Source: Buxus sempervirens (Eukaryota; Streptophyta; Magnoliopsida; Buxales; Buxaceae). Taken from it: a stretch of 64,000 nt of DNA. Of this stretch, positions 9,823-43,413 are shown piece by piece; position 1 is the stretch's first letter; every line of letters begins with the position of its first letter. The notes under the pieces were generated by a model. That model made no database searches. It was not told where the DNA came from and was given only the letters and a program-made list of their open reading frames with translations. Both the position numbers and the translations under genes were made by a program. The DNA lies in assembly GCA_947561395.2 (NCBI GenBank), contig OX387190.1, positions 12,146,858-12,210,857 of the forward strand, written 5' to 3'.

Positions 9823-10094
9823 CAATAGCATATAAATTGCTTTTATGCTATCATATAAAACTACTGTAAATAGCTGATGCATTCTACTTAAAAATATACT
9901 TGACATATATTCTAATGGGTTGAGCAATAATCGAGGGGTTAGTTCGAGTTAAATCCGTTTATTGGTAGGTTGGGGAAACCCAAAACCAAACCCAACTCGC
10001 CAATAATTGGATTCAACCCACCAACTCGATTAATATTTTTTATCTTTTAATTATAAAAAATACACCAATAAAAAATAACATAAATTAGTATTTA

Positions 10095-10400
10095 GGGTTA
10101 AACAGGTCGTTATTAGGTTAAATAGGTCATTAACGAGTTAAACGGACCGTTATCGAGTTAAATGGGTCATTATCAAATTAAACGAGTCATTATCGAGTTA
10201 AGCGAGTCATTATCGGGTTAAACGAACCATTATAAGCTTAAACAGGTTATTATGGATTAAACAAATCATTATCAGGTTAAACAAGTTATTATAAGGTTAA
10301 ACGGGTCATTATCGGATTAAGCGGGTCATTATTGAGTTAAATTGGTCATTATTGGGTTAAATGGATCATTATCGAGTTAAACGGATCATTATCAGGCTAG
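10095..10400. repeat. degenerate minisatellite of GGGTCATTATCGGGTTAAAC-type units
   Basis: About fifteen tandem units of roughly 20 bp, each a variant of GTCATTATCGGGTTAAACGG, lie inside the Harbinger-like element. The units vary at a few positions, so the array is old or evolves by unequal exchange. Confidence 0.75.
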
Positions 10401-11191: not shown

Positions 11192-11582
11192 TGATGCAGT
11201 AAACTAGTAAAGATAGTTAATCTTCAGAAACCAATCTCGCACTGGAACTGAAAGAAAATTGGAAATCTCTTCCAATGTTGAAATCACTCCAAATCAAGTA
11301 AATTGAATAATCGAACTCCTCCTCTCTTTACAACTAAGATTATTTAAAGAAACTAAATAACAAACAAATAAAAGAAAGGAACTAATAGTCAACTAAATAA
11401 CAAATAGCTAAGACTAAATAACAACTAGCTAACAGAAAAGAACCAAAAACGTTGATCTTGATTTGGTATATCTGGAAAATCCTGCTATTTATAATTGCCA
11501 CCGTGGCACTTCCTCCTTGTTAGCTATCATACTTCCATGCTTATGCTTATGTGGCACTCCTTGCTTTATGGGCATTGTATCA
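11192..11582 (-). repeat. 3' LTR of the gypsy element
   Basis: The plus strand starts TGATGCAGTAAACTAG and ends GGGCATTGTATCA. It is nearly identical to 19006-19396. It is the downstream LTR because the element is on the minus strand. Confidence 0.9.
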
Positions 11583-19005: not shown

Positions 19006-19396
19006 TGATGCAGTAAACTAGTAAAGATAGTTAATCTTCAGAAACCAATCTCGCACTAGAACTGAAAGAAAATTGGAAATCTCTTCCAATGTTGGAATCA
19101 CTCCAAATCAAGTAAATTGAATAATCGAACTCCTCCTCTCTTTACAACTAAGATTATTTAAAGAAACTAAATAACAAACAGATAAAAGAAAGGAACTAAC
19201 AGTCAACTAAATAACAAATAGCTAAGACTAAATAACAACTAGCTAACAGAAAAGAACCAACAACGTTGATCTTGATTTGGTATATCTGGAAAATCCTGCT
19301 ATTTATAATTGCCACCGTGGCACTTCCTCCTTGCCAGCTATCATACTTCCATGCTTATGCTTATGTGGCACTCCTTGCTTTATGGGCATTGCATCA
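19006..19396 (-). repeat. 5' LTR of the gypsy element
   Basis: 391 bp, about 98% like 11192-11582 by eye. It ends at the TTAAG duplication at 19397-19401. Confidence 0.9.
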
Positions 19397-22380: not shown

Positions 22381-23284
22381 TTTAGTTGAATAAAAGCTGT
22401 ATTTAGAGGCAGATTTAAAGGACCAAAAGTTTGGCATATAAAAGGATGCCCTAACTAAAATATCTATTTTTGTGAGAACCTTTTCTTGTTTTGGACGTAT
22501 AGAACAAGGGGAAAAGAGTGGGAGCTTGCTTGAAAGCTTCAAAAAGAAGGAGAAGAAGAGGAGAGCTGGGAGAGAAGTTGTGCTTCTCCATTTCACAGGT
22601 AAGTAGCAAACCCTTCAGACAAAATGTATTACAAAATTCGTATTCTCTCTATGGTTTGATTTATTTTGAAGAAATGATCTTGCATGTTGGTATTTGCTTC
22701 TAAAACTCTTAGGTTTTGATTGTATAACACCCTTGTTTAGTTTTCTATTGATTTGCGATGGGTTTGCAGCCTAGATTGATTATATTTCAAATTTGGGTTT
22801 GAGTTTTGTGTTTTGAATGAGGTTTCATCTGTTGGATTTGTGTTCATGTAGATTTGAGATGAATCTTTGTTTTGGAAAGTGTTTTTAAGTATGTTGGGAT
22901 GATTTATAATCATCTCATTTAGTGTTGGAAAGGTTAGGAATAATTTGTATGAGTTTTGTGTTGAAAATAGCCAAAAATACTTCACAACTCGACCTGGCGA
23001 TTAATCCTGAGCCAAAACCCCCAAAAATGAGTTTCTGTTAAGGACAGGATTATTCTTGCGATTAATTGCAAGCTTCAACGCGCAAACGTCCATGAGGGAC
23101 GTGTGAGCGTTGGCTTTGTTGTGGCCTGGGAGCGCAAACGTTAAGTTGAACGCGTGAACATCAAGACAAATTGCCCCTGGGTGATTAATCCAAGGACTAA
23201 TCGTGGGTGCTGTTTTGACAGTTCTTCACCCTTTTCTTCCCCAACCCTTTCCCAAACAACCTAAACCTCCTACACAGCACCCTT

Positions 23285-23360
23285 ATTATATGAAAGACAT
23301 TTAAGTAAATGGCATGTGCATTTATTGCTCCATTTACTCAAGTCTTTACATGTAAATAAG
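23285..23360. repeat. imperfect palindrome within LTR copy 3
   Basis: The left arm contains GACATTTAAGTAAATGG and the right arm CCATTTACTCAAGTC followed by TTTACATGTAAATAAGG; they pair over roughly 30 bases with a loop of about 16. The same arm occurs in LTR copy 2 (about 15860-15895) and as a palindrome in the 5' LTR at 27360-27440. Confidence 0.75.
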
Positions 23361-25004
23361 GTTTTACCCCCCATTTGAAACCAATAAAAATACTCCCAAG
23401 GCCCAATTCCCAACCAATAAAAAGTCAACTTTCCAGTTCATGCCTCAATTTCCAGTTTTCCCGATTTTTATCAAAGACCACTTTTTGAGTTTGATACCCA
23501 AATTAGTGATTCAGAAGCCCATAAAATTCCAAAAAACTTGTTTACCCTTCATTAGACTACAACCAGAAATTGAGCCCAAACTCCTCGTGGATTTGTCTAG
23601 AAAAATTATATACCCAAAAGTCAACTTTTTAACTAGACTTAGAATATTTTCAAGGTCCAAAACTTTTTGTCTCGGAACCCATTGATTTTTGGTATGGTGA
23701 CTTATTCAGGAATCTTAAGACTATCACATTCATCCAAAAATGTGTTTTGAGGATTTTATGACATTCGTTTTGATTGAATTGGATTTATGAAAGTGAGGTT
23801 GAGAACTCTTTTGTGATTTGAATGATGAAGCTGAGGCTTCTTGTGGATATGAAAAGGGGCTGAGTGCCCATGGTGACCCGAGAGGCAGTGAGGCCTAGGG
23901 GTTTAAAGAAAGGTGAACATGAGGTTTACTTGGTATGGTTTTGTGCTTCAGACAAGTGGTGCTTTTATGAGATTGGTTTTAGGAAAACTGTTTTATTGGT
24001 TTATCATGAGTTTGTATTGAGTCTAGTGGGCATAGAGATGGTTATGGATCCATGGTCAATCTAGTTAGTATATTAGTGATGGCTTGTCAAGTTAACACCC
24101 CAAGCCACATTTGCGTACCACTATGTGGGATCAGTGAGGCCTTCTTATGGGATAGATTGAGTTGCAGCATGCCAGCCCATGCGTGGGTTCTCCACTTGGA
24201 TGATGACCGTGCGCGGCTTCAACCTTCAAGTCGTGAGGTGGCAAACTGGCTAAGGGTGGTTATCTTGATTTACATACACACTAATCCACGAGTCCTGGTA
24301 AGTCATATTTGCAGTATTTGATTATTTTTATAGAACTGATATCATGTGTGATTCGATTAAGATATTTGACTTGGAATTACACTTTATATCTGATTGAATT
24401 GCTTTGTTTTACATTCGGTACTTTATATTGTGAATATTATCATGATATTATAAAATTGCATAAAATGTTTCTATACATGCATGTTTGCTACTTACTGGAA
24501 CTTTATGTTTTACGCGTGCTTTGTTTTACCGGATTTGTTTTCAGATCCTCTTGGTAAGCCACGTACTGGGGCAGATATTGATGGTGAGCTTGGGTACAGG
24601 CCAGAGGACTACTATTACTACCCATAGTAGGATTTCCCTTTGTGATGTTGTATTTTGTCTTGGGGAGTTGTAAATGTGATGTAAATAATCTTTTTGGGTT
24701 TATACTCTTGGGAGATATTTTTTGTATATGTCTGTATATTTTGGAGAGAGCTTGTGAGCATTTAATTGCCTTAGTTATATTTTGTATACACAGATATTAT
24801 ATCTTTTGGAGTTGTTATACAGATGATCTTTTGTTGTATGGAAATTCTTATTCCATGTGCTTCTATAGCTTATGCACTTTGATGATTACATTGTAATCAC
24901 CCAGGTTAATTGTGTTTATCAGGTTCCATTGGGCCCATAAGTAGGTCTCGGGGACGGGTTGGTGCCGTGATAGGGCAAAGCCGGATCTGGGGCGCTACAA
25001 GATG

Positions 25005-25784: not shown

Positions 25785-25789
25785 CAGTC

Positions 25790-26795
25790 TGTAGATGACC
25801 ATTTTTGTAACTTGATACGTCACCTATATAATGATTCGGCATGAATGATTTGTCACATGATAGAAACAGATTTGTCATAGGTTATCTGTCACCTGATAGA
25901 AGCAACCCGTCATGGGTCATCTATTATCCAACAGAGTAGCCTGTCATAGGTTATTTGTTACCCGACAATAACAATAATAGTAAAATATGACATGATTTAT
26001 TTATATTATATGTATCTGGCATATTGGAGTGGAGATCTCGGTCTTGGCCGAAAGCCCACTTGGGGGGGGGGGGGGGGTTTCTGGCAGTCCTTAAGGTGTG
26101 GCGGACACGGGTGTGGGAATTGTCGGCAACCAGTGACGAATCACGGCATGTCGACCTAGAATGACGAAGACGTCAAGTGATTTATAATTCCACATCTTGA
26201 CATGTGGGACCCGGCTTACATATCAGAGAGCTCTATCTTTTATCAGCACCATCTCTTATTTCATTCTTATCATGAACCTAGACATTTATGAGATCAGATT
26301 CAAGATAAATATGAGAACATCTTAAGCCTCAGATTGTGACACTTGTCACAATCCTAGAGACACATTCCTTCTATAAATATAAGAACCCTCTTCCATTTGA
26401 GGACCCCCCTGGATCTTTGGTTGCTGAGAGCAGTACTTCTTTTCCTTTGGACCTTCTCCAAGTCTACCAGGAATTCTCTAAGTCCATCTTTGGATTTCTG
26501 TCTTCTACACTTTCTGGAACCATGAAAGGAGCTCTCTGGCTTGGCATACGTGAAGAACACTTGAGTATCTCCCGTTTCTAATTCTAGCCGTTGCCTACCT
26601 CTCACGCCTTATCGACTCCAACCCCTCTTCTGTTCAGTAACGACGCGAGAACGGTTGTTGAGTCAGCGGTTTAGGCCAACGTCGGACATACCTCTCCTAC
26701 TCAAAATTGAGATATGAAGACACGTCATCGTCATTTCGACACCATGGAGATAACATTGGACATGTGGACGTGGATTAAAAAAAAAGGCACCTACA
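25790..26795 (+). repeat. 5' LTR of the outer element
   Basis: It starts TGTAGATGACC and ends GGCACCTACA. A TATA-like CTATAAATATAAG lies at about 26374-26386, a plausible LTR promoter. A run of G lies near 26063-26076. It matches 40267-41268 closely. Confidence 0.9.
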
Positions 26796-26800
26796 TTTTC

Positions 26801-26818
26801 TGGCGACTCTGTTGGGGA
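26801..26818 (+). promoter_or_regulatory. primer-binding site of the outer element
   Basis: TGGCGACTCTGTTGGGGA lies 5 bases inside the LTR end. It resembles the complement of the 3' end of plant tRNA-Arg, the primer used by Ogre/Tat-type gypsy elements (recalled). The inner element carries almost the same site at 29691. Confidence 0.75.
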
Positions 26819-27364
26819 GGTTAAGTCACTAACAGAAGAAACTTTGAGGAATTGGCGATATGGCGAGAGCTAGAAGGACGCGAGACGAACAAAGTGATCT
26901 GGCACTTGCTGCCTGTAGACACCCCAAAATTGCACGATTTTTTATAAATCTTGAAGGAGAGAAATATTTTATTGGAATTTTCAATTCTTTGCATTGGGTT
27001 TGAGATACTTAACCCATTTGAATCCAAAACCGTAAAGGAAAAGGCCTGAATTCAATCTTTTGTGCAAAGTCAAACTTCTTCCGGTTGAATTTTGTTGACT
27101 TTTGACCCCAGAAAATGAAATTTTTTTAAAGCCAGATTTCAAGATAATTTTTCCCGGTAATCAGGTTTTTAGCCATGTTATTGCATAAAAGAATTTTTTG
27201 AGATTTTAAATCTTGACGAATACGTTGGTTTTAACATATTGAACCTTTTTTCTAGACCTGAAAAATCAGAATTTTGCCTAGAACTGGAAAGTTGACTTTT
27301 TATTCACTTGGAATTTGGGTCTGGAACTATTTTTAATGGATTCAAATGGGGGGGTGTTTGCTTA

Positions 27365-27440
27365 TTTACATGTAATATCTTAAGTAAATGGAGATTAAAA
27401 AATACGATGACATTTACTTAAATGATGTTACATGTAAATA
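27365..27440. repeat. palindrome in the inner 5' LTR
   Basis: CTTATTTACATGTAATATC and TTAAGTAAATGG on the left face CATTTACTTAAATGATG and TTACATGTAAATAAG on the right, forming arms of about 30 bases with a short AT-rich loop. It is absent from the 3' LTR of the same element. Confidence 0.8.
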
Positions 27441-27483
27441 AGTATTGCCTGTGTTAAAATTCGAAAAAAAGGCTTTTTTCCTT

Positions 27484-27625
27484 GTATCCGGCAACTCAGG
27501 CTGGATACAAGTGTCCTTCTTTGTATCCGGTGGAAAATGCCGGATACAAGTAGACCTCAGTGTATCCGGCATCATAGACCGGATACATTAAGGTACTTGT
27601 GTATCCGGCCTGATATACCGGATAC
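27484..27625. repeat. array of four short hairpins, 5' LTR copy
   Basis: GTATCCGG occurs at 27484, 27523, 27562 and 27601 with an exact 39-bp step. Each is followed 9-10 bases later by CCGGATAC (the first as CTGGATAC), at 27501, 27540, 27579 and 27618. The 3' LTR has a diverged copy at about 32850-32987. Confidence 0.9.
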
Positions 27626-29678
27626 ATCAGTTTTGCTCAAAATTAGGGTTTTCCGAGAGATTTCATCTTTTACCATCATGTCCTTCATTAAATGAAGGGA
27701 AATCTCGGAAATAGCCTTAGGGTTAAGGTTGGTGGGCTATAGACATTATGTTGTGTCTACCATTCTCACCAACCCTAACCCTAGCCTTTGCCTATAAATA
27801 GGAGGCTCCGCCTTAAGCAAAGGGCAACCAACTCTTGTTTTGAATTCTCGCAAAGAAGAACTCCAAGAGAAGAAGAAAACCGCTGCGGGATCGCTTCCAG
27901 AACCCAGGTAAGCCTCAAACTTTTCTTTTATTTTCTGTCTTTACATTCCTAGATCTAGATCTATTCTTCTACCTTTCTGTAGAATAAGGCCTTCTTTGTG
28001 TGTGAAAACCCTTCCCCGGCTCAAAGTATCTCGAGACTCCCCCTAGCCGTAAAACGTGGAGGCGGGATCTAGGAGAAACGAGACTGGGGATTGACCCTAG
28101 CATTAGAACCTATGTAGCATAAAGCCTTTTGATTGATTGTAAACCGTTTCATATTCAAAGTACCCTTGATTATCTTGAAGAACCGTGTTTAACGGGGAGA
28201 GAGAACAGAGGGAAACGATAATGGAACGGAACCCTAGGCTATTTTAGAACCTCATTTTGATGAATATGTATGCATGCTATTGATCTTGTTTGGTTTTTCA
28301 CACTTGCACATACATAGTGCCATTTTGGCGGGATAGGCTCATATTTGGGTTTAATTGCATTTATTGTGATAAATCTCAAATAAATGGCCTCAATCAATTC
28401 TGGAATGTTTTCAAATGATTTTTCAAAGATTTGTGTTCATCCTGCATGGCACACACTTTATCACAATTTTGAGTTGGTTTTACTCAAAAAGGGCCTAACT
28501 GGACAGCACCTGTACCCTTACTTCGGACGCTCATAACTTCATCGTCCGGATGAATTTTGGAGCGATTCCAGAACCATAGGAAAGGTGAGGCTATCTAGTT
28601 TATGTCCACAAAATTTCATTAATTTCTATCAAGCGAATTTTTGACACCTCTCTGTCAAAGTTGATTGGACAGTTCAGGTTTAAATACAGAACTTGTCACT
28701 TCGACGGAGCGCCATGCGCTCGTTTTAAGTCCGATTCGAGTGATTTTTATTTCTGGTCACTCCTTTATGAGTCTATTTTCAAATCCAATTAGTTTCATAA
28801 TTTTTTGACTACATTTGAATTATTGGTAGCCGATTTACTCAGAACTGCTCAATGGCATTTTTCTGGGTAAATCTGTGATCTTCGGGGCCTGTTCGGGAGA
28901 CCACCCAAGGCACATCAGAAGGGATTTTTGTATGAGGCTAGTTTCTTTTGAAAGATGGCCATACAGACTTCAATCACACCAATTTTCGTGGATTTTTATG
29001 GAGTGGATTTTTCTATGCAATTTTCCAAAGTTGCCCACTTATCACTTTTTGATTATCCCCAACAGCAACCTTAAAGGAGCATAACTCCTAGGATTTTTAT
29101 CGGAATGAAGTGAAATTTTGCATGAGACCCTTATTTACTATAATATTTCAAATGGATTTGGTTTGGTTCAATTTAAAATTGGATTTGAATGATTTCAAGG
29201 CAAATGGCATACTTTTTACCGAATTTTTCGGATTTGATTCAACTTGGTTTTTGAGCAACTTGTGCTTTGATTTCTATCTTTTGAGATATTCCAGAAATGA
29301 TATTGACATAAGAGAGGATCTAGAATCCATTTAGATCTTCATGTGGAAATATCATACATTGGTCCTTTTTCAAGGTTTTCTATGATTTTAGCAAGCTTTC
29401 TTATTTTTGCATGAACATACACTTGGCTACCACTTCGTGTGGATGAATGGGGGTGCCTAACACCTTCCCCCGTTCATAATCTAACCCCCTTACCCATCTC
29501 TGGATTTGATTTTCAAGTAGGGTTATTTTTATTCTAGAATGTTTCTTTTGTCTCTTTTTGCTTATTTCTAACTTTTGGTGTCCATTCTCACCCCAAAATT
29601 ATGAATGGTGGCGACTCTCCAACTTTTATTTCGAGCCCCATGTGTTGACAGAGGGATGATCATTCCGGTGATTTTTCC

Positions 29679-30702
29679 ATGTCTCACAACTGGCGACTCT
29701 GCTGGGGACTTGTGGATTCAAGCCAATTTTGGGTGTTTTGTTCATGCTTTCTTTGCTTTCTTTGGGAGATTATAGAGGCCATGATTGGTCATTGGGTACC
29801 CGACCTCAACCTTTTCCGTTTTGGGACCCATGAAATGACCCCAACCATTGAGGAGGTGGAAACCATCCTGGGCTTGAGGTTTGATGAGAAGGTGGTGAAT
29901 CCACCCCTTAGGCCCAGTTACAAAAAGGAAGCTTCTACCTTCTTGGGCATAGGGAAGAAGGACTTGGGGGATTCTGACACCCTTTTGACCCTATCTAAGG
30001 CTTTTTTGACTGAGAAGCTTTTGAGGCGGGAAAATAAGGAGGCCCGGTTCAACGCATTGACCCTGATAGTGGTCAACCAGCTGCTTTTCCCACGAGATGA
30101 TGATGAGGTGGATTTGGCCTTAATTTCAGTGATATGCCAGGTTAGGGAGCGGGAGAGGTTGGCCCCTATGATTTTGGCTGGGATGTATCAGGCCTTGACT
30201 GATTGCTACAATAGGAAGTCAAAACGCTTCTTAGCATGTGCCCAGATCCTACAGGTAAAAAAAAATTAGAAAATTTTTTCTTTTGCTTTTTTTTCTTTTT
30301 TGCTTTTTTGCTTTCTTTTTTTGCTTTTTTGCTTTCTTTTTGCTTTTTTTTTCTTTTACAATGTGCCGATATATCTCTTCTCCTTTGCAGCTTTGGCTAC
30401 TTGATCATTTGAGTCAGATTGAGGAAATCAATCGACACTTCTTCCGGAACTTGAAAGTCCCCATCTTGATGAGCAACCGGGGGTGTCCCGATATTCCAGG
30501 GGGCAAACAGGGCTGGTTTACTTTCTTGGGCTCCCTTCAGGATGACCAGGTGAGATGGCCTGGTACTTATCAGCCCAATGCGGAGACAGTGATTAGCTTC
30601 CGAGACCGCAACTTTTTGATTCTGGCTGGCCTGAGACATGCAGTGCTTTATCTTCCTCTGCGGGTCCTTCGTCAGTTCAGAGCGATCCAGGGAGTCACCT
30701 AA
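29679..30702 (+). pseudogene. DUF7745-like (plant-mobile-domain-like) coding region in the inner element, two exon-like parts
   Basis: Part 1 (about 29779-30253) contains GHWVPDLNLFRFGTHEMTPT, then IEEVETILGLRFDEKVV and VVNQLLFPRDDDEVDL. Part 2 (about 30390-30702) contains LWLLDHLSQIEEINRHF, GCPDIPGGKQGWFTFLGS and FRDRNFLILAGLRHAVLY. Between them lies a T-rich stretch starting GTAAAA and ending TTTGCAG, with normal intron ends. The wording 'H-W-x-P-x-x-x-x-F-x-F-G-x-x-E-M-T-P-T-I-E-E' resembles DUF7745 / plant mobile domain proteins often linked to retrotransposons (recalled). Role unknown. It lies directly after the primer-binding site, where Ogre-type elements carry an extra ORF. It is treated as part of a fossil element. 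Confidence 0.55.
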
Positions 30703-32130
30703 TGGCTCAGACAAGGTGGCGCTGGAACTCGCCTCTGTCCGAGCCCGAGAAGTGGAGGGCTGATCAGCAGGGTCAGCCTCCTCTCTAACGCGAGAACGAC
30801 TCCTAGCCATCTACACACATCAGGGAAGTGCCCTATGAGATTCAGTATCCTACTTTGCTTTTGATCGAAATTCAATTCAAATTCATCAGAAATTCTACTT
30901 TGCTTTTAATCTAGGTTTCAGTGCAAATTACCTAGCCTTTAACCTAGGTTTTAGTTCAGCGGGAGTTTTACAAAACTTTTTTTAAGTTATCCTTTTATTC
31001 CTGCTCTTTTGATTCAAAGTTTTTTGGGAAATCATTTGTTTGTCAGTTCTATGCGAAGCTTAATACTTCCTAATTTATTTTCAGGAATGGCTCTGGAAGG
31101 CAAAATAAAACAGCCAGGATAAAGATCAATGCGGGAAGCACACTCCAAAGGCTACTGAAACACAAAGCCCTGCCTAGGTGAAGAGCATGTGGAGGTCAGG
31201 TTGAAAATAGCAGAATTCTTCATCACCAATAGTTCCAGAAAAAAAAAATGGAAAGTCAAAACTGTAGGATTCAGACCAGAAGTTGACAAAGCATGGCATT
31301 TACAATAAGCAATTCAGTCTAGCATCAAGCCCAGACTGCTTAGTCACTGTCAATTTGGGCGTACTTCAAAGAAAAAAATTTTAGACCAAGAGGCATGCAG
31401 CCGATGGGATGTTCAAAATTGGTCACCTCAAGCAAACAAAAATAACCAATTGCCAACATATGGTCAGGCCAAATGTCAATCAAGGCACCAAAGCATCACA
31501 AACATGGCAATTTGGCATAGTGTATGGCAAAAATGCTGGAAATCATGCAAGATTTGAGGATCAAAAATTCATCAAAACATGCTCGAACTCAATTGTCTGA
31601 AGTTGGGAACAAAAGGGCTATTCAATGTTTACAAAATGAGCATGGCCATTCGACAGAAAAATTTTGGCATACAAGTGTTTACAAGAAAGAAATTTTCGGC
31701 AAAAAAATTAGAAACAATAGGAGAATTAACAAGTGGCCATTCGATAGAGAATTTTTTTGGCCGAATAATCACTCACCTGTTGAAGGGGAAATCGAGCACT
31801 GAATGGCAAGATCAAACTGTTGAAGGACGAACTCCCTGGAACTGTGCGGAAGAAACGGGCAATGAACAGTCGCTATTGCCGGAATCCAAGAATCGCCGAC
31901 GAACAGTGCGGAAATCGCGAGCTAGGGCTCGGTCACTATCGAAGGAGCAATTACCAGAGTTAGGAGTAATCGCAGGTGGCAATTAAAGTCGCCGGAATCC
32001 AAGAAGTAGCCGGGGAATCGCCGGAGAAGAAGGGAGCAACAGTCGGGGTGGAGGAGAAGAGAAGGTGTCCAGTCTGAGTAATCGGAGAAAGAAGAAAAGA
32101 AGGTGAAAAGTCGCGGTCGCGCGCAACTTA
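30703..32130 (-). other. possible antisense transcription unit in the inner element
   Basis: On the minus strand a TATA-like TTTTATAAGTTGCGC lies near 32127-32141, followed by a pyrimidine-rich leader (about 32100-31900). At 30810 an ATG, preceded directly by an acceptor-like TGTGTGTAG, opens a Ser/Arg/Glu-rich frame starting MARSRSRVREEADPADQPST and running to 30397, overlapping the DUF7745-like region in antisense. Splicing and expression are inference. It could be a chance open frame. Confidence 0.25.
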
Positions 32131-32139
32131 TAAAACCTT

Positions 32140-32205
32140 GGGTATCCGGTCACTCAGACCGGATACAAGTGATCTCATTCTTATCCAAATACTAATACCG
32201 GATAC
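32140..32205. repeat. single extra copy of the GTATCCGG hairpin unit
   Basis: GGTATCCGGTCACTCAGACC followed by GGATACAAGTGA and, further on, ACCGGATACC lie upstream of the 3' LTR. It is a diverged relative of the LTR hairpin array, in the same orientation. Confidence 0.6.
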
Positions 32206-32340
32206 CAAAGGAAAAAAGAAAAAAAAACAGAAAAAAACAGAAAAAATAGAAAAAAACAGAAAAGGAAATGAAAAAAGGAAAAAGAAGAAGAAAAAAAAGG
32301 AAAAGAAAAAGAAAAAGGAGAGGAAAAAAGAAAAAGAGCA
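32205..32340. repeat. A/G-rich low-complexity tract
   Basis: A long AAAGAAAAAG-type purine tract. It gives apparent Lys/Glu-rich and Phe-rich open frames on the two strands that are not credible genes. Confidence 0.8.
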
Positions 32341-32753
32341 AAATTGTGCTATAAATTTTACTATTTTCTCAAAATCCCTATTTTGCCTTAAAATCCACCT
32401 CACAGCCACGAGAGCTCGGTGGAGTTTAGGACAACCTTGGGAAATGTGCTGGTCAAAAGGATGATATCCACTCAATTTTTTAACTTGGTTTGATAAAAAA
32501 TCAATTTTTCAAAAAATCCTATTTTTGGGCTTAAAATCCACTTCATAGCCACGAGAGCTCAGTGTAATTTAAGAACTCTTGGAGAGATGCCCCCCCCCCC
32601 CCTTAAAGTTAGGGCTTTTGGCAAATCTTCACTCAAAAATTGTTTTTTTACAAAATTGAATTGAATCAAGCAAATCATGCTTAGGGGAGTGCAATTTGGG
32701 CTTGTCTAATCTTTGCAGCTCATTGCTTCGCAGCTTCCGCAAAGAGGGGCAGT

Positions 32754-34955
32754 TGTAGACACCCCAAATTGCACAAACAATCATCAAAAATCATTATCTC
32801 CTTGAAAGCCAGCATAGAAATTGAAGAAAATGAATTTTTACCTGTATTCGGTAACTCAGGCCGGATACAAGTACTCCTCTGTGTATCCGGTGGAACATAC
32901 TGGATACAAGTGAGCCTTAGTGTATCCGGTATCATATACCGGATACCTTAAGGCCCTTGTGTATCCGGACTGATATACCGGATACATAAGTTTTGCTCAA
33001 AATTAGGGTTTTCCGAGAGCTTTTCACTTTTACCATTATATCCCTCATTAAATGAGGAGAAATCTCGGAAATAGCCTTAGGGTTAAGGTTGGTGGGCTAT
33101 AGACCTTAGGTTGTGTCTACCATTCTCACCAACCCTAACCCTAACATTTGCCTATAAATAGGAGGCTCCTCCTTAAGCAAATGGGAACCAACTCTTGTTT
33201 TGAATTCTCGCAAAGAAGAACTCCAAGAGAAGAAGGAAATCGCTGCGAGAGTGCTTCCAAAATCCAGGTAAGCCTCAAACCTCTCTTTAATTTCTGTATT
33301 TACATTCCTAGATCTAGATCTCTTCTTCTACCTTTCTGTAGTGTAAAGCCTTCTTTGTGTGTGAAAATCCTTCCCCGGCTCAAAGTATCTCGAGACTCCC
33401 CCTAGCCGTAAAACGTGGAGGCAGGATCTAGGAGAAACGAGACTGGGGATTGACCCTAGTGCTAGAACCCATGTAGCATAAGGCCTTTTGATTGATTGTA
33501 AACCGTTTCATATTCAAAGTACCCTTGATTATCTTGAAGAACCATGTTTAACGGGGAGAGAGAACAGAGGGAAACGATAATGGAACGGAACCCTAGGTTG
33601 TTTTAGAACCTTATTTTGATGCTTGCTATATTGTTCTATTGATCTTATATGGTTTCTCACATTTGCACATACATAGCACCATTTTGACGGGATAGGCTCA
33701 TATTTGGGGTTTATTACATTCATTATGATAAATCTCAAATAAATAGCCTCAATCAATTCTGGAGTGTTTTCAAGTGATTTTTTAAGGTTTTGGATTCATC
33801 TCACACACTTTATCACAGTTTTGAGTTGGTTTTACTCAAAAAGGGCCTAACTGGACAGCACCTGTACCCTGACTTCAGACTCATAACTTCATCGTCCGGA
33901 TGAATTTTGGAGCGATTCCAGAACCATGGGAAAGGTGAGGCTGTCTAGTTTTTGTCCACAAAATTTCATAAATTTCTATCGAACGGATTTTTTGACACCT
34001 CTCTGTCGAAGTTGAGTGGACAGTTCAGGTTCAAATATAGAACTTGTCACTTCGACGGACCGCCATGTGTTCGTTTTAAGTCCGATTCGAATGATTTTTG
34101 TTTCTGGGCACTCCTTTATGTCATTTTTCTGGGTAAATCTGTGATCTTCGGGGCCTGTTCGGGAGACCACCCAAGGCACATCCGAAGGGATTTTTGTATG
34201 AGGCTAGTTTCTTTTGAACGATGGTCATACAAACTTTATTCACACCAAATTTCGTGGATTTTTATGAAGTGGATGTTTCTATGCAATTTCCCAAAGTTGC
34301 CCACTCATCACTTTTAAAAATCCCCAGCAGCAACTTCAAAGGAGCATAACTCCTAGGAATTTTATCGGAATGAAGTGAAATTTTGCATGAGACTCTTATT
34401 TACTGTAATCTTTCAAATGAATTTAGTTTGGTTCAATTTAAAATGGTATTTGAATGATTTCAAGACAAATGGCATTACTTTTCACCGAATTTTCCAGATT
34501 TGATTCAACTTGGTTTTTGAATAAACTTGTGCTTTGATTTCCATCTTTTGAGATATTCCAGAAATGATATTGACATAAGAGAGGATCTAGAATCCATTTA
34601 GATCTTCATGTGAAAATATCATACATTGGTCCTTTTTCAAGGTTTTCTATGATTTTAGCAAGCTTTCTATTTTTGCATGAACATACACTTGGCAACCACT
34701 TTGTGTGGATGAATGGGGGTGCCTAACACCTTCCCCCGTTCATAATCTAATCCCCTTACCCATCTCTGGATTTGATTTTCAAGTAGGGTTATTTTTACCT
34801 TAGAATTGGCATTTTTGCACTTTTTAATGATTTTGAACATTTTGGTGTCCATTCTCACCTCAAAATTATGAATGGTAGCGACTCTCCAACTTTTATTTCG
34901 AGCCCCGTGTGTTGACGGAGGGATGATCATTCCGGTGATTTTTCCATGTCTCACA
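32754..34955 (+). repeat. 3' LTR of the inner element
   Basis: 2202 bp. It starts TGTAGACACCCC like its partner, then soon diverges. It lacks the palindrome block and has at least one further sizeable gap (opposite about 28760-28850). The hairpin array is at about 32850-32987 and a TATA-like CCTATAAATAGG at about 33151-33162. Confidence 0.85.
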
Positions 34956-34960
34956 CTGCC

Positions 34961-35644
34961 TTTGGAGGACATTCCCAACATCAACAAGCTCCAGCACATG
35001 ATGAGAATTTGAATTCACACCCAGTGCAATCTGCCCAAAATACCGGCAGACTGGCGGAAAATACTTCAGAGTTGAATGGATGCATTGAGGAACTTTTCCA
35101 CATCATTGACGCCAAGGAACCAAAGGAGACTCCTCTTATTATTGAGGAGCATGACGAACAATAGAAGATACTATCAGGCTCGGTTGCTAGAAAGAAGAGA
35201 CAAAGTCTAGTGATTATGTCACCATGACAAACTTTGAAAGCTTGCTGAGAAGGCATTATTTCTTGCTCTATGGCAAAAGCTACAAGATCATGTGGTGTGC
35301 TTCAAAATGTACCAAACTTTGCTACAACTGCCACATCTAGAAAATCTTCCCAGAACCAGCCATGAAACCAATAGAATGAGGATGCTCAAAATGAAGTCAA
35401 TTCTCATGGCGCGAAGGCGAGCGTGCAACAAAATTCGGACTTACATGTGGCATATCACGATATGAATGCTTATGTGGAGGAGATTTACTGGATGATGCTT
35501 GAAATATTTGCAGACAAGAAGCATGCCAAACAACCAGGAGGTGTCGTTGAGCGTCAAGATCCATTATTGAACATCGTCACTAGCAAACTAGCTAAGAAAT
35601 CTGCGAAGTTTGTTACACGGTCATATTTGAGAGACGTACTATGA
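34961..35644 (+). pseudogene. gag-like coding remnant of the outer element
   Basis: Short plus-strand open stretches rich in polar residues (for example HSQHQQAPAHDENLNS, then GCIEELFHIIDAKEPK) start right after the inner element and are followed at 35423-35644 by MNAYVEEIYWMMLEIF. They lie where gag would be, next to the primer-binding site at 26801 once the inner element is set aside. No gag motif or zinc knuckle is recognised. It is broken. Confidence 0.35.
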
Positions 35645-36230
35645 AAGAGAAGAAAAAGTTCGATGCTGAATTAGTCTGGTGGTGCGATTTTACTCCACCA
35701 TATCCACTTTCTCTACTGAACAAGGAAATGCAGCATGGTATTACAAAAGCTTCATGACAGGATTTTATATCCTAATGATTGCTAAAATCATGATAGCTTC
35801 ATTATCAAGCATATACTAGAGATCATTATAACATGACTAGCCATTTTATATTTGGGGGCTGGATCTTGTCAAGCTTGATGGCATGGATTTCAAACGCAAA
35901 GAAAATGAGATATTCTGAATGAACACATCTGAAGAGGTCAAATAGATGTCTCTTGGCAAGATGAACCTGACTCTCTGTCCAAGTCACTTTCTCAAAGGCT
36001 TCGACATAACCTCATCATTCTACTTCCTAACTTAGACTGCCAGTCCATATATCTCTTATTAAGACTTGAAGAATCTACAACAAAACGAGCAAAGAGTTGA
36101 ATTCAAGATAAAGCAATTTAAGTGAGATACGACAAAATATGTTGAATGTTAAGCTGCATGAGATAGAGAATGAGATGCTGAACGAGAACCTATACGAGAT
36201 ATTGTATGAGATTTGATTCTTCCGAGGCAA
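35645..36230. other. outer element interior, nothing recognised
   Basis: No motif, repeat or open frame above noise is seen. It belongs to the outer LTR element by position. Confidence 0.4.
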
Positions 36231-36234
36231 AATA

Positions 36235-37090
36235 TTGTGGATGGCACCGATCTGGCTAGCGATCTAGACGGGAGCCACATTCTTTATGTCAAAAGAGATC
36301 AGTCCTATAGGCCAAAGGTTTGTGCATGGCACCGATCTCACTGACGAGCTTGACGGGAGCCACATTCCTTATGGCCAGATTATCAACACCATGGATTTGT
36401 GTATGGCACCGATCTTGCTGACGAGCTTGACGGGAGCCACATTCCTTATGGTTGCATTATCAATGCCAATGGTTTGTGTATGGCACCGATCTTGCTAGCA
36501 AGCTTGACGGGAGTCACATTCCTCCTGGCAAGAGAGATTGCCAAAGGGTTTGTGTATGGCACCGATCTCACTGATGAGCTTGACGGGAGCCACATTCTTT
36601 ATGGTCATTAACAGCATAGGTTTGTGTATGGCACCGATCTCGTTGACGAGCTTGACAGGAGCCACATTCCTTATGGTTTCATTATCAATGCCAATGGTTT
36701 GTGTATGGCACTGATCTTGCTGACGAGCTTGACGGAAGCCACATTCCTCCTGGCAAGAAAGAGATTAGCCAAGGGTTTGTGTATGGCACCAATCTCGCTG
36801 ACAAGCTTGACGGGAGCCACATTCCTTATGGCCAGATTATTAACACCAAGGGTTTGTGCATGGCATCGATCTTGTTAACAAGCTTGACAGGAGCCACATT
36901 CCTTATGGCAAGTTTTCAAGACTAAGGGTTTGTGTGTGGCACCGATCTTGGTGACAAACTTAACGAGAGCCACATTCCCTATGGACGAGGTTATCAACGC
37001 CAAAGGATTATGTATGGCACCGATCTCACCGAGTGGTATAAGTGGACAGGAGCCACATTCTTTACACCCACTGGCATTACTTATGAAGAA
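36235..37090. repeat. tandem array of about 77-bp units in the outer element
   Basis: The core TATGGCACCGATCT recurs at about 36242, 36328, 36405, 36482, 36558, 36630, 36703, 36783, 36861, 36937 and 37016, giving steps of 72-86 bases. Each unit also holds GAGCTTGACGGGAGCCACATT. The period is not a multiple of three, so the apparent repeat proteins (MYGTDLADELDGSHIPYG) change frame from unit to unit and are probably not coding. Confidence 0.85.
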
Positions 37091-38410
37091 AAGGATTTGT
37101 TTATGGTACTTTTCTCGTCACAAAATACAAATGAATAGAAGCCACATTCCCTAAAAGCTGAAGACAATATTGAGTTGGGTGGAATGCCATAGAGTTATTA
37201 AAGAGGCTGACAAAATAAACCAAGGCGCATGATGACGAATCGAAGAAAGCATGAAAGCATACCTTTTTAGGGTATGTAACCACAATGCCTGGAAGGTTGT
37301 ATTAGTGCTTCAACGAAATGTGACAGAATTGTCAAGCCAAAAAGACAAGCATTTCTCCTTCGTCTTATCCATCTTGGCATAAAGCTTTTCTTCTACCAAC
37401 TGCGAGGGTAATAAATCAACGCTAAAGCCGACACTTGAAATCTTCATCTTGACCTAAGACTACTTACTGAGCAGAGGCCTTGTCAAAGCCAAACACTTTG
37501 CATGATGCATCTCATGAATATTTCAGTAAAGCTCCGTGAATAAGGTACCATGCCAGCCCCTACATCATCAACACAAGGATCAGAATTCTTGATTACTGCT
37601 ATCGCTTTTAGTAGTGGAACAAGATAGAATGACCTTTAGACATACCTTGCACTGAGACGCATCCTCAAAAGGAGAGGTGATCTATCAAGACATAAAACTA
37701 TAAGAACTATGATGAAGTATGCAATATGAGAAAGTTGAGTAGCAGATTTATCACCTATCTTCAAAAGCTTTGACAGACTATCCTTGGTTTTCGTTGAAGT
37801 CTTCTTCTTCTTTGTTGCTTTATTCCATGATGAAGAAGCCCTTAAAAGATTTTGACGCAAGTGCAAGACATGTAGAAGATGAGAAAGGAGCTTCGATTGG
37901 TGTGCCACGTTCGTGAGTATGCCAAGACAATCATGAGAAGCCTTCTGAATGCATATCTGTTCACAAGGATAAGTTCTAGAAGATTCCTGTCAGAAAAACG
38001 TGGATATCGACTTACTTGTCATATGCCAACATTCGAGCAGAGAAGATAAAAAAATTTGAACAAGTCCAAACTATCTAATGATGTGGTGTGGATTATGGCA
38101 ACGCAAAGAGAGACACCCACCGTGACGATCCATGGATGGACGATGGCGTGATGATAGCTAAGTAGATCTGATCACTCGGCATGAAGCTGTCCCAGGTCAC
38201 TTATGCTGCTTCTTCAAACCCAGCTTCTATATCAAAGATGAAAGTGATACATCAATACAAGGGGCTATGCCCAGCTATCTCCAAGCCCAAGGCAATTTCA
38301 TTCGGCAGACTATAAGGTGCTCGGCATCATCCTACTTGATAGATTCTTTAGCTCCAGTGGGTGCAAATTCGTCAAAATCAGGTATGAACCAATACACTCA
38401 ATTGGCTGAG
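37091..38410. other. outer element interior, nothing recognised
   Basis: Mixed-composition sequence with short open frames only. No RT, integrase or protease motif was found on either strand. Confidence 0.4.
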
Positions 38411-38890
38411 TTCTAATCCGCTTGTGGCCCTGCGGGCACGGATTCAAACATGAACATGCTTCCAGCGGGCGCAAGTTCATCTAAGCAAGCCAAGCCTAAA
38501 TCCGCTTGTGACCCTGTGGGCACGAATCTAGGCACGAACACGCTTGGCCCTACGGGCACGAGTTCATCATGTCAGGCAAGGCTGGAATCCGCTTATGGCC
38601 CTGCGGGCACGGATCCAAGCACGAATACACTTCCAGCGGGCGCGAATTCGTTAAAGTCAAGCCAAGCTCAAACCCGCTTGTGGCCCTGTGGGCACAGATT
38701 CGGGCATGAACCAGCATGGCACTATGAACGTAAGTTCATCATGTCAGGCTAGGCCGGGATCCGCTTGTGGCCCTGTGGGCACTGATCCAAGCACAAACTC
38801 ATTTGGCCCTGCGGGCGCGAGTTTGTAAGGTCAAGCCAGGCCCAAACCTGCTTGTGGCCCTGCAAGCACGGATTCGGGCATGAAATTAGT
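38410..38890. repeat. tandem array of about 85-bp units in the outer element
   Basis: The core CCGCTTGTGGCCCTGCGGG recurs near 38418, 38502, 38589, 38674, 38760 and 38847, a step of 84-87 bases. It is GC-richer than the surroundings. Confidence 0.85.
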
Positions 38891-38899
38891 CACGGGTTC

Positions 38900-40250
38900 G
38901 CTGAATTTCATGGGTGCCAATCAAAATCCTGCATGTCTGCTTGATTACCTGTCGTGTATTTGCCTTATTGCTTCCTTTAAATCCTTGAAAAGTGTTTTTG
39001 TTGGTACACCTGTTCAAAAGAAAAGAAGAGAAAAATCTACGTTAGACGTATAGTAAAGAATAATATGTATGAGTAAATTTAAAAGATAAAGTAATAAAAA
39101 AAATATAAGAGAAAGGAAAATCATTTGTTGGGCTCGCCATGTGCAACGTCGTTTGGTGTCATGAAGTGGGGGGGCTTTCCAACTCTGAAACCCAGCCGAT
39201 GTGTATCTGGGTTGTTTTAAAAAAAAAAATTTTTTTTCTTTTTGTGAAAAGAATGATGGCGTAACGTCTCATGAATCATACATGAAGAAAGAAAGACTTG
39301 TGTGGATTTGTGTGGGTGTCAGACCCTATGTTGAAAAAAAAAGGGTGGAAGAACAGATAGAGAGAACCAAGGAGAGAGAGGTGGAGGAAGAATGAGAGAT
39401 CAAAAAAAAAAAGAACGAAAAAGAAACAAAGTAAGGAAAGAGAGGAGGGTGTGTATTAAAGAAAGAGAATGAGAATGAATGAGATGTGAAAAAAAAAACT
39501 AAACTAAAAAGAAGAACGCAGGAGAGAGAGGGAGAATAAAGAAGAAAGAAAGATTAAAAATATATATATACATATAAATCTCTTGGGCTTGTCATGTGCC
39601 CAAGAAAAACTTTGGTATATGTGCCCTGGCTTGGAAGTCTTCGCACAGGTTAAACAGAGAAAAGACAGAGAGATGGGTAATGAAGAAAGATAGGAAAAAA
39701 AAAAGTGTGGCATGTCAAGTTCGCTTATGCGGGCCTGACAACATGAAACAAAAGGAGTGGGAAGAGAGAGAGAGAGAGAGAGAGAGTATACGTATGAAAA
39801 AAACAAAACAAAGTTTAAAAAATACCTCGATTCAAAAGTTGAGCGATCCGTAACTTTAAATTTGAAGAGAATTGACCGTCAAAGCATAAAATTGAAAATT
39901 GAGATCAGTAACAGGTATTTATAAATTTTCTGTATGGGATTACTTAGTTGATAAGGACTCTTAACTTCCTTGAGTTGGATTTTAAATCCAACTTTATCTT
40001 TAAGCAATTATATTTTCTCTTTAATTAGTTAGAGTTAGAATGTAACTCTAACAATTAAAATCCTACACAACTTTTACTTGAAATTGAGCTTTAGCTATGA
40101 GAATTTGAGTCCAACTCTGCCTCTAACCTGTCAAAGCAGTTAATTTAATTGAGACATATTTATCAAGTTAAAATTAGTCAAATATTGCTAATTACCAAAA
40201 TACCCCATATATTTGTATTTTTTCTTTTGGCACTTGAAAATTGCCAAAAC
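38900..40250. other. outer element interior: purine-rich tract, then AT-rich tail
   Basis: From about 39320 to 39840 the plus strand is strongly AG-rich (AGAGAGAG, AAAGAAAG), including an (AG)n run near 39763-39786. The rest is AT-rich. No coding is supported. Confidence 0.6.
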
Positions 40251-40266
40251 GCAAAAGGGGGCTTAA

Positions 40267-41268
40267 TGTAGATGACCATTTTTGTAACTTGATACATCAC
40301 CTATATAATGATTCGGCATGGATGATTTATCACATGATAGAAACAGATTTGTCATAGGTTATCTGTCACCTGATAGAAGCAACCCGTCATGGGTCATCTA
40401 TTATCCAACAGAGTAGCCTGTCATAGGTTATTTGTTACCCGACAATAACAATAATAGTAAAATATGACATGATTTATTTATATTATATGTATCTGGCATA
40501 TTGGAGTGGAGATCTCCGTCTTGGGTGAAAGCCCACTTGGGGGGGGGGGGTTTCTAGCGGTCCTTAAGGTGTGGCGGACACGGGCGTGGGAATCGTCGGC
40601 AGCCAGTGACGAATCACGGCATGTCAACCTAGAATGACGAAGACGTCAAGTGATTTATAATTCCACATCTTGACATGTGGGACCCAATATACAAATCAAA
40701 GAACTCTATCTTTTATCAGCACTATCTCTTATTTCTTTCTTATCATGAACCTAGACATTTATGAGATCAGATTCGAGATAAATATGAGAACATCTTAAGC
40801 CTCAGATTGTGACACTTGTCACAATCCTAGAGACACATTCCTTCTATAAATATAAGAACCCTCTTCCATTTGAGCACCGCCCTGGATCTTTGGCTGCTGA
40901 GAGCAGTACTTCTTTTCCTTTGGACCTTCTCCAAGTCTACCAGAAATTCTCTAAGTCCATCTTTGGATTTCTGTCTTCTACACTTTCTGGAACCATGAAA
41001 GGAGCTCTCTGGCTTGGCATTTGTGAAGAACACTTGAGTATCTCCCGTCTCTCATTCTAGCCATTGCCTAACTCTCACGCCTTATCGACTCCAACCCTTC
41101 TTCTGTTCAATAACGACGCGAGAACGGCTGTTGAGTCGGCGGTTTAGGCCAACGTCGGACATACCTCTCCTACTCAGAATTGAGATATGAAGACACGTCA
41201 TCGGCATTTTGACACCGTGGAGATAACATTGGACACGTGGACGTGGATTCAAAAAAAAGGCACCTACA
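40267..41268 (+). repeat. 3' LTR of the outer element
   Basis: 1002 bp. It starts TGTAGATGACC and ends GGCACCTACA. It is preceded by the polypurine tract AAAAGGGGGCTTAA and followed by TAGTC. About 2-3% different from 25790-26795 by eye. Confidence 0.9.
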
Positions 41269-41273
41269 TAGTC

Positions 41274-42275
41274 TTACCATACAATGCGCCTCTTTAGGAT
41301 GCAGATGACCATATAAAACCACATCATCCACAAACATAAGGTGGGTCACAGCAGGACTTCCACGCTTTAATTTAATTCCCCGAAACCTCCCATCTAATTA
41401 TGCTTGAGAAATTTCCAAACTTAGTACCTGGTGACAAAGGATAAAGAGGTAGAGAGAGAGGGGATCTCCTTGTCAGAGACCTCTGGAGGGATGAATTTGA
41501 CCAATAGGTGATCCGTTAAGCATAATACTAAAAGTAGCAGTGGATACACACTTCATAATCAGGTTAGTTATCTGAGAATTAAAACCAAACGCCAAAAGAA
41601 CAGTTCTGAGAAAATTCCAATTAACCCGATCATATGCTTTAGAAAATCCAACTTTAAGGCATACCAACCTTGAGGATACTTCTGTCTCCTTTTGGACTTT
41701 TGTGATTTCTTCTTTTTCTTGTGAAAAAAATAAGCAATCTCATCATGAATAAGAATATTATCACGTATATGACGACCTAGAACAAAAGCTGCTTGATGTG
41801 GGGCTATCAGCTGTGGCATCAGAGGTCTAATTCGTTTAACCAATAATTTGGAAATAATCTTGTTAAGGACATTGCACAAACTAATAGGACGGAATTGGCT
41901 TAACTGACGAGGATTAGATACCTTGGGAATCAACACTATGAATGTGTGATTGATCCTATCAGGCAGAGAGCCTGACTCAAAGAAAGTCTGTACAGCTTTA
42001 GTCACCTCCGGCCCTACTATGTCGCAGTATCTTTGGTAAAAGACTGCAGGGAAACCATCCGGCCCAGGCGCTTTGAAAGGAGACAAACTTCTAACTACTC
42101 CCCAAACCTCATCGGTAGCAGGTACCTGAGATAGGATTGCATTTTGTACTTCAGATATTTGAGGTGAGATAAGACCTGTCAATTGGAAAGTCATCCACTG
42201 GAACTGATCCCTGAACAAATAATCAAAATATGAGATGACATGAGATTTCAAAGCTTTCTGTTCAGTAATTTCCAC
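41274..42275 (-). pseudogene. LINE-B reverse transcriptase
   Basis: The minus strand reads FKAPGPDGFPAVFYQRY, QFRPISLCNVLNKIISKLLV and APHQAAFVLGRHIRDNILI in the open stretch 41568-42275. It continues in another frame with VGFSKAYDRVNWNFLRTVLL and IMLNGSPIGQIHPSRGL (41473-41667), and has an FVDD active-site box at about 41321-41334 (reading THLMFVDDVVLYG). A frame change lies near 41640-41670. The LTR element is inserted just after the FVDD box. Confidence 0.85.
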
Positions 42276-42408
42276 ATTATCTGAATCCTTAAGTGAAAAA
42301 AATATAATTCTTCTGCCTCCGAATAAGTGTTGATTTATGGAAGAATTTTGTGTTTAAATCTCCATATTGAAGCCATTTAACCCATGACTTTTGATACCAC
42401 AAGAGTTC

Positions 42409-43413
42409 CTACTGGGATAGTAATTTTGAATATTCTTGTATGAGAGTCTTCTCAGATTCAATGAGATGAGGCGCTCCTGACTCAAAGATAGCTTCTTGCA
42501 CCATCTGGGGTTGATTTTTCAATTGAATTAAACGATCATGGAGATTCCTGACGCAGGTTTTGTTCCATTTTTTAAGTTCCCATGCAAGATTGCTCAACCT
42601 TGAGGAAATTGGCATCGTAAAATGAGCTTTTTCCCAGACTTCTTTAATGACTGTCATGCATGTGTCTTCTTCCATCCATAAGGCTTCAAATCTGAATGGC
42701 CTTCGACAACCCCTGTTCTCATGAAGAAGTTCAATAACCATAGAGCAGTGATCGAAGGCAATAATTGGTTGTGAGTAAATAAGAGGGTGAGGACAAAAAA
42801 CAAAAAAGTTAGAAGTTACAAATCCTCTGTCAAGCTTTTCAGAAATGCGGCGACGACCTTGATGCCCATTGGTCCAAGTAAACTGAGGACCCTTCATAGC
42901 CAACTCACATAAATTACAATTATTAACAAAATTAAAAAAAGCTTCTGTCTGATGGCAATTGAGGGGCGCTCCTTCGCGTTTATTTGAATCACACATGGCA
43001 TTAAAATCTCCTATGATTAAAACTGGTTCATCAGTCATGCGACACAGATTCTCAATAAGGCACCACTGATGACGTTGGAATTGAAGCCGAGAGCTAGGAT
43101 GAACAAATATAATATTGCAAGATTTGTCTCTAAATGTCATCTGCAATTCCAACAACCAGTCAGTAGTAAACAAGATAGAAACAGAAACATTAAAGGACCA
43201 CGAAATGAGGAAGCCTTCACGTCGACCAACAGCAGGTTGGACAAAATAGTTAGAAAATCCAGATTTCCGTGCCACTCAAGAGGCAGCGGTGTCTTGGATC
43301 AGCGTTTCCGATAACAAGATTAAATCCGGGGAGTGGGCTGATATCTGATCGATTAGATGTTGTTGATTTGCAGACCTCCCCAATCCATGACAATTCCAAA
43401 ACAGAAATTTCAT
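42409..43413 (-). pseudogene. LINE-B endonuclease and ORF2 start
   Basis: ORF2 starts at the ATG complementary to 43411-43413 (MKFLFWNCHGLGRSANQ, the usual W-N-C-x-G box). A TGA near 43274 breaks it, then 288 codons (42409-43275) are open: VGRREGFLISWSFNVSVS, VLIIGDFNAMCD (GDFN box intact), GPQFTWTNGHQGRRRI and IIAFDHCSM (FDH where SDH is usual). The stop at 43274 and the altered SDH box suggest a dead copy with few changes. Confidence 0.85.

Follow-up and report, generated by a model that had tools for sequence, protein, structure and literature searches.

The inner element of a nested pair of LTR retrotransposons in Buxus sempervirens is very probably a recombinant of two parents within one, apparently Ogre-like, Ty3/gypsy family. 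Its 5′ LTR would derive from a long-LTR subfamily, and the 3′ part of its interior, the polypurine tract and the 3′ LTR from a short-LTR subfamily, a partition held with the same high confidence. Since its LTRs appear to come from two subfamilies, the inner element looks older than the element that hosts it. The features below were located in the window, which is the whole stretch of 64,000 nucleotides that was analysed.

25785–25789, no strand: flanking repeat CAGTC at the left of the outer element; one mismatch to its partner TAGTC (41269–41273; by eye)
25790–26795, + strand: outer 5′ LTR
26909–26913, no strand: left copy of the inner target site duplication, CTGCC; a single-copy empty site in 5/5 outer relatives fetched
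26914–29688, + strand: inner 5′ LTR, 2775 bp, assigned to the long subfamily
29566–29625, + strand: apparent switch from long-type to short-type sequence within the inner 5′ LTR (moderate confidence)
29689–29708, + strand: primer-binding-site region, ACTGGCGACTCTGCTGGGGA
29709–29758, + strand: leader; primer-binding site plus leader match L053 at 97% over 70 bp (compared with this short-subfamily copy alone)
29759–29763, + strand: join of leader and inverted fragment, with a possible 4-bp filler
29763–30692, + strand: plant mobile domain fragment in inverted orientation with respect to L063, a full-size relative
30678–30692, + strand: join of inverted fragment and 3′ part, where two alignments to L063 overlap by 15 bp
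30693–32753, + strand: 3′ interior part, with the polypurine tract CGCAAAGAGGGGCAGT at its end (32738–32753)
32754–34955, + strand: inner 3′ LTR, 2202 bp, assigned to the short subfamily; carries an 85-bp deletion private to it
34956–34960, no strand: right copy of the inner target site duplication, CTGCC
40267–41268, + strand: outer 3′ LTR

The inner element runs from TGTAGA to CTCACA with an exact CTGCC on both sides, that is, a short target site duplication (TSD) around TG...CA ends, and its LTRs are adjoined by a primer-binding site (PBS) and a polypurine tract (PPT) as in an LTR retrotransposon. The LTR lengths and the intact CTGCC reported in a first-pass annotation of this DNA were confirmed. 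The insertion site was unbroken in all five outer-family copies fetched (the top five among 39 other matches), each with a single CTGC(T/A), indicating that the nesting order, inner within outer element as annotated, is real and excluding a chance match of CTGCC. An inter-element recombinant produced by unequal crossing-over is expected to have no matching TSD, and a matching one was found here. As judged from present-day sequences, which later exchange may have altered, the two LTRs were probably not identical at insertion.

Over 2187 aligned sites, the inner LTR pair showed 194 differences (8.9%). In the multiple alignment the short U3 head is forced on top of the long one; a trimmed count without these unalignable columns left 175 differences over 2124 sites (8.2%). 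The outer LTR pair differed at 42 of 1003 sites (4.2%), about double the 2–3% given in the annotation. Its claim that the inner pair is the more diverged was upheld (8.2% versus 4.2%; Fisher p = 2.1e-5, trimmed alignment), and the inner values of 8.2–8.9% lay close to the approximately 8–10% it had given. Non-CpG sites showed 8.5% (177/2073) for the inner versus 2.8% (26/924) for the outer pair, and transversions only showed 3.3% versus 1.2%. CpG decay was rejected as the cause of the inner excess, which was still seen outside CpG. The annotation had named two findings that would overturn its claim, an inner excess that vanishes once insertions and CpG decay are removed, and a chance origin of CTGCC; neither was found. 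The length gap between the inner LTRs involves U3-head stretches of 252, 63, and 165 bp, present in 11/11 full long and 0/11 full short copies. A further 85 bp, carried by all 22 full copies and absent from the inner 3′ LTR, adds to this gap.

On their sequences, the inner 5′ LTR is assigned to the long-LTR and the inner 3′ LTR to the short-LTR subfamily of one family. For each LTR similarity search, the best 40 of thousands of candidates were scored; among these, full-length long-subfamily relatives matched the inner 5′ LTR at up to 95% identity. The 58 other rows compared include two places taken twice (L023/L053 and L024/L052), which remain in the tree and in some LTR-tail comparisons, and the difference counts use 56. 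Four loci that are the window itself (L001, L009, L039, and L051) were excluded from the counts. At 30 diagnostic columns, the inner 5′ LTR was long-type at 28 and the inner 3′ LTR short-type at 28, and their distance of 8.2% equals the mean of the 121 (11 × 11) long-by-short pairs. Placing the LTRs in trees with genomic copies had been proposed in the annotation as a test of a chimeric origin, and its outcome was positive. The tree of LTR positions 544–1530 separated 18 long rows from 40 short rows, with one change needed for each, and placed the inner 5′ LTR among the long and the inner 3′ LTR among the short rows (SH-aLRT 99). Constraining the tree to pair the inner LTRs cost 162.5 log-likelihood units (AU p = 6.7e-5). 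Moreover, for 140 of the 175 inner differences each of the two states recurred in two or more of the 56 other copies, and just 19 were private, compared with 74 private differences out of 180 in five ordinary LTR pairs used as control. Three control pairs (L010/L011, L028/L013, and L029/L037) were matched by place and sequence over about the first 2000 bp per LTR; for the other two (L053/L054 and L058/L057), a PBS and a PPT are present as well and the flanks match (CAAAG and CAACT). Ordinary ageing of one subfamily was rejected on the tree split and the few private differences.

These results suggest that the inner LTRs were probably never identical. Calibrated on the five ordinary pairs, divergence since the event would be about 2%, below the outer 4.2%, and about three quarters of the inner LTR divergence would predate insertion. 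The terminal branches of 0.020 and 0.021 leave room for as much as 4.1% since the event, so on the tree alone the inner pair need not be younger than the outer. Plant retrotransposons are usually dated by LTR divergence, on the assumption that both LTRs started out identical. Nesting supplies an independent order of events, and in this case the assumption of an identical start appears to fail. Because its LTRs would already have differed when they were joined, the inner pair is unusable as a clock. LTR swapping in soybean was reportedly the topic of an earlier paper.

The interior of the inner element is rearranged. Each of its two joins, leader to inverted fragment and inverted fragment to 3′ part, had a single occurrence in the genome when up to 3 mismatches were allowed. 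The 5′ LTR tail combination also occurred once in 676 Mb, where control searches gave 27 and 47 matches. The two-parent reading is also favoured because all three of these occur once in 676 Mb. Approximately 32211–32753 of the interior is short-subfamily sequence, and approximately 30930–32080 is poorly matched. The plant mobile domain (PF10536) was detected at 3.4e-13 in the inner copy and 4e-14 in L063, where it lies on the opposite strand to an integrase core fragment. The inverted fragment retains an apparent intron (by eye), and gag-pol was not detectable in the inner copy. An extra open reading frame (ORF) for this domain, an Ogre feature that is not a strict marker, is thus present in both copies; in the part of PMC6317226 covered, it occurs in 57% of Ogre elements. 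The extra ORF and the large size of elements resemble the Ogre lineage of Ty3/gypsy Tat as described there, whereas the inversion of the fragment and the lack of detectable gag-pol do not. An Ogre-like Ty3/gypsy assignment is put forward as a lead.

The inner 5′ LTR probably turns short-type about 65–120 bp before its end, and its tail, from about 29619 to 29688, is short-type (moderate confidence). The long left tail word was found in 3/11 long and 1/11 short copies, and the long right tail word in 4/11 long and 3/11 short copies. The family is mosaic and the tail words are therefore imperfect subfamily markers, so the switch could be an old join of the 5′ LTR's own lineage.

The annotation had proposed that the inner copy was made from two different RNAs. 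Of its three explanations this one is supported in substance, in that the LTRs belong to different subfamilies and were probably never identical, but reverse transcription makes external LTRs identical even with two RNAs (PMC1950507), so that intermolecular plus-strand transfer, cDNA recombination, or later DNA repair would be needed. As the route, repair at a resident solo LTR is narrowly favoured over recombination before integration, each at less than even odds. On this tentative reading, the inner element would never have moved as one unit; instead, a broken resident solo LTR would have been refilled by templated repair, keeping the older, genuine TSD of the solo LTR. Such a refill may, with similar reserve, be the reverse of solo-LTR formation. 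A break near the right end of a resident solo long LTR would have been filled by homology-directed repair that copied short-subfamily templates; two template switches would have produced the inverted fragment and removed most interior sequence, and copying would have ended in a short 3′ LTR, joining back to the old LTR somewhere in about its final 50 bp. Of the 11 full long LTRs that ranked closest among the candidates scored, seven are solo with 5/5 TSD, which was counted for repair. The more than 5 kb to be filled in one repair is long, and was counted against it. Entry of a one-LTR circle into a solo LTR by one reciprocal crossover is disfavoured, since short-type letters follow directly after the switch in both LTRs.

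Recombination before integration is an almost equally likely route. RNAs or cDNAs from both subfamilies would have recombined during or after reverse transcription, by intermolecular plus-strand transfer or by LTR–LTR recombination of two cDNAs, and integrase would have inserted the product as a unit. The exact TSD and clean LTR ends then need nothing further assumed, and Onsen members recombine at high frequency in a transposition burst (PMC5668417, sections covered). However, ordinary strand transfers yield equal LTRs (PMC1950507) and an extra intermolecular step is required; the inverted fragment requires an opposite-sense template, for which its apparent intron (by eye) mildly disfavours a spliced antisense transcript. 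Overwriting of the 5′ LTR of a normal short-type insertion by a long-type LTR would preserve the TSD and place the right edge of the conversion tract at the apparent switch (about 29566–29625). It is improbable, as its left edge is confined to the first dozen or so LTR bases, where the types cease matching, and the unique internal rearrangement is left unexplained. Misassembly of pieces from different copies, to which the three single joins within high-copy repeats would point, is a little less probable still: one outer element supplies both flanks, the inner TSD is exact, at least two misjoins are required, one precisely at an LTR end, and the contig is 43.6 Mb long. The annotation had also offered homogenisation of the outer LTRs by gene conversion or strongly different local mutation rates. 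A 187-bp identical run in the outer pair (P = 0.006) may be a small conversion tract, but the two outer LTRs lie at similar distances from relatives (approximately 9–10% from the three closest), which argues against conversion as the main cause, and different mutation rates are not needed. With just 19/175 private differences, LTRs in different subfamilies, and an excess that remains outside CpG, an initially identical inner pair that diverged faster, by local mutation rate or methylated-C decay, or beside a homogenised outer pair, is hardly credible.

Reversed nested ages are already described: in the part of PMC7251063 covered, 1042 of 4126 nested pairs had lower LTR similarity than the enclosing element, as here. 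Those cases are ascribed mainly to gene conversion, whereas here the cause would be the two-subfamily LTRs of the inner element. A subfamily tree placing both LTRs of each element is a cheap test, which on such reversed pairs (about a quarter in that source) would part recombinants from gene conversion. The inner element resembles the template-switching complexes of Triticeae (PMC1950507) in being one TSD-flanked insertion from two parents, but those have three LTRs, the outer two highly similar, whereas it has two LTRs 8.2% apart and a rearranged interior. Recombinant Arabidopsis Onsen insertions likewise combine LTR sequence of two or more family members; in the sections of PMC5668417 covered, most switches are attributed to the first template switch, and unequal 5′ and 3′ LTRs within one new copy are not described. 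Onsen, moreover, is a Ty1/copia element and was followed experimentally. If the repair reading is true, counterfeit insertions of this kind would be accepted as intact elements by structural filters, and could account for part of the nested-age reversals now ascribed to gene conversion.

An Ogre-like LTR retrotransposon (26914-34955, the inner element) lies within another LTR element (25790-41268, the outer element). The following features of the inner element were located.

Features of the inner element
26909-26913 and 34956-34960: target site duplication (TSD) CTGCC, on both sides of the element
26914-29688: 5′ LTR
29763-30692: plant mobile domain fragment (PF24924, 1.1e-16; PF10536, 3.4e-13)
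32754-34955: 3′ LTR

The genome searched comprised 676.5 Mb in 247 contigs. Five outer-element relatives, the top-ranked among 39 other matches to the right flank, were 84-95% identical to the left and 92-94% to the right of the insertion point, and all five carried a single CTGC(T/A) there without interruption. Because they run unbroken through this point, the nesting order is secure, and this empty site bears out the CTGCC duplication and the insertion into the outer element proposed in the first-pass annotation. The repeat flanking the outer element reads, by eye, CAGTC at 25785-25789 and TAGTC at 41269-41273; one C-to-T change would suffice.

Of 2187 aligned sites, 194 differed between the inner LTRs; leaving out the U3 head, which could not be aligned, the count was 175 of 2124 (8.2%). 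The outer LTRs differed at 42 of 1003 (4.2%). The greater divergence of the inner pair, first estimated by eye as 8-10%, was therefore retained, but the 2-3% given for the outer pair was too low. CpG decay was ruled out as the source of the gap. Reversed divergence in nested elements is already known, with 1042 of 4126 nested pairs (PMC7251063). In the outer LTRs, 187 bp are without mismatch (25853-26039 versus 40330-40516; P = 0.006 by shuffling), possibly a small gene-conversion tract.

The inner family has two LTR subfamilies, long and short. Each similarity search listed the 40 best-scoring of its 2268 to 10096 candidates. Among these, 39 other places matched bases 1-487 of the inner 5′ LTR at 98%, and 39 other places matched bases 1-500 of the 3′ LTR at 95-97%; over the full length, long relatives of the 5′ LTR reached at most 95%, and short relatives of the 3′ LTR at most 96% in the front and 98% in the rear part. 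A tree was built on LTR positions 544-1530 with 18 long and 40 short rows, and one change sufficed for each set. The inner 5′ LTR grouped with the long rows and the inner 3′ LTR with the short rows (SH-aLRT 99), and forcing them together was 162.5 log-likelihood units worse (AU p = 6.7e-5), so the question whether the two belong to different subfamilies was answered in the affirmative. Four ordinary LTR pairs of other copies (L010/L011, L013/L028, L057/L058 and L029/L037) were sisters, and L053/L054 clustered with a duplicate of L053 in a set of three rows. Of 30 diagnostic columns located past the head, 28 had the long letter in the inner 5′ LTR and 28 the short letter in the inner 3′ LTR. 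The 8.2% equals the mean of 121 long-short pairs (11 full long by 11 full short LTRs, same columns; range 6.4-9.7%). The long U3 head possibly harbours a small DNA transposon: 27281-27442 is palindromic by eye, like a MITE, with 79-81% matches at 23282-23439 and 15778-15896. The inner 3′ LTR also lacks 85 bp at 34120 (LTR position about 1367) that are kept in 22/22 full copies of both subfamilies, a private deletion.

Over its final 75 bp, the inner 5′ LTR showed a minimum window distance of 2.7% to short versus 10.8% to long copies, and elsewhere it was nearer long copies in most windows. Its final diagnostic long letter is at 29565, and a short-type word begins at 29619. This long-left, short-right combination occurs once genome-wide, in the inner 5′ LTR; short/short occurs 27 times, including the inner 3′ LTR, and long/long 47 times. 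Counted over the 22 full copies (11 long, 11 short), the long left word occurred in 3 long and 1 short, the exact form of the short right word in 0 long and 2 short, and the long right word in 4 long and 3 short copies. Since the family is mosaic in the LTR tail, a switch from long to short near the end of the 5′ LTR is probable. The 70 bp directly after this LTR matched the short copy L053 at 97% identity, in a comparison with the short-subfamily leader alone.

To date the inner element, the 175 differences were compared with 56 other copies. Both states were found in at least two copies at 140 sites, and one state in just one copy at 16; 19 were private (12 in the 5′ LTR, 7 in the 3′ LTR). 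The private share was 74/180 differences in five ordinary pairs of this family whose divergence is 0.95-2.5%. Scaling the 19 private changes by this fraction gave about 2.1% since the event (1.3-3.3% from counting error alone; 1.6-2.8% when single controls are used), versus 4.2% (3.0-5.7%) for the outer pair; the estimate is biased high in that private changes may be older than the event, and low where another copy re-mutated the same site and hid a private change, which affects control pairs alike. On this calibrated reading, the expected age order, inner younger than outer, is restored. The tree by itself leaves the order undecided, because the terminal branches of the inner LTRs (0.020 and 0.021) permit up to 4.1%.

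The interior is rearranged. In L063, a full-size relative, the plant mobile domain ORFs are plus-strand and the integrase core minus-strand, and 29763-30692 is inverted relative to the PPT end. Two interior searches, each listing 39 other matches, gave eight match pairs at most 10 kb apart, all on opposite strands, and ten at most 30 kb apart, nine opposite and one same-strand (contig C22, 14.8 kb apart). The leader join was crossed by 0/39 other matches listed in one of these searches. Allowing up to three mismatches, this join and the second one, between the inverted fragment and the 3′ part, each occurred once genome-wide; visual inspection of the two revealed short microhomology and what may be a 4-bp filler. 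All four interior ORFs tested lacked a gag-pol domain, and about 30930-32080 aligned poorly to L063. Plant mobile domains are reported in 57% of Ogre elements (PMC6317226), and in Retand, another Tat lineage, ORFs running antisense have been described in the region from pol to the 3′ LTR (PMC11963269).

Because the joins are found nowhere else and the TSD is intact, these results point to a one-off event and not a spreading subtype. The explanation narrowly and tentatively favoured is repair at a resident solo long LTR: this LTR would already have been at the site, a break near its right end would have been filled from short-subfamily templates, and the return would fall within about the final 50 bp of the 3′ LTR, a stretch that by eye is alike in both types. 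Solo LTRs are common in the inner family, 7/11 closest full long LTRs (among the matches listed) and 5/11 short ones having 5/5 TSD flanks as solo LTRs. The runner-up, almost as likely, is that RNAs or cDNAs of both subfamilies recombined before integration. TSD-bearing two-parent insertions are already known (PMC1950507), as are new insertions with recombinant LTRs (PMC5668417); but, as the LTRs are made equal by ordinary strand transfers (PMC1950507), this route calls for an additional step between molecules. Conversion of the inner 5′ LTR after insertion is improbable as the source of its long type, misassembly of pieces from different copies is slightly less probable again, and rate or homogenisation effects are a very improbable source of the divergence; the remaining probability was assigned to routes not thought of. 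The literature searched yielded no description of a plant element that combines an intact TSD with LTRs from two subfamilies, which is weak evidence of absence with subscription papers mostly outside the search.

Other repeats were also observed. The outer element contains tandem arrays at 36235-37026 (10 copies of a unit of about 77 bp) and 38415-38884 (87/172-bp units). Adjoining it, 41571-43275 is probably a LINE fragment, judged from minus-strand ORFs matching reverse transcriptase (PF00078, 1.6e-7) and, under the curated cut-off, endonuclease (PF03372, 6.6e-5). Elsewhere, 15461-15897 and 23320-23766 are inverted copies of about 440 bp with 86% identity, and the 391-bp direct repeat at 11192-11582 and 19006-19396, whose copies lie 7.8 kb apart and share 98% identity, resembles a further young LTR pair.
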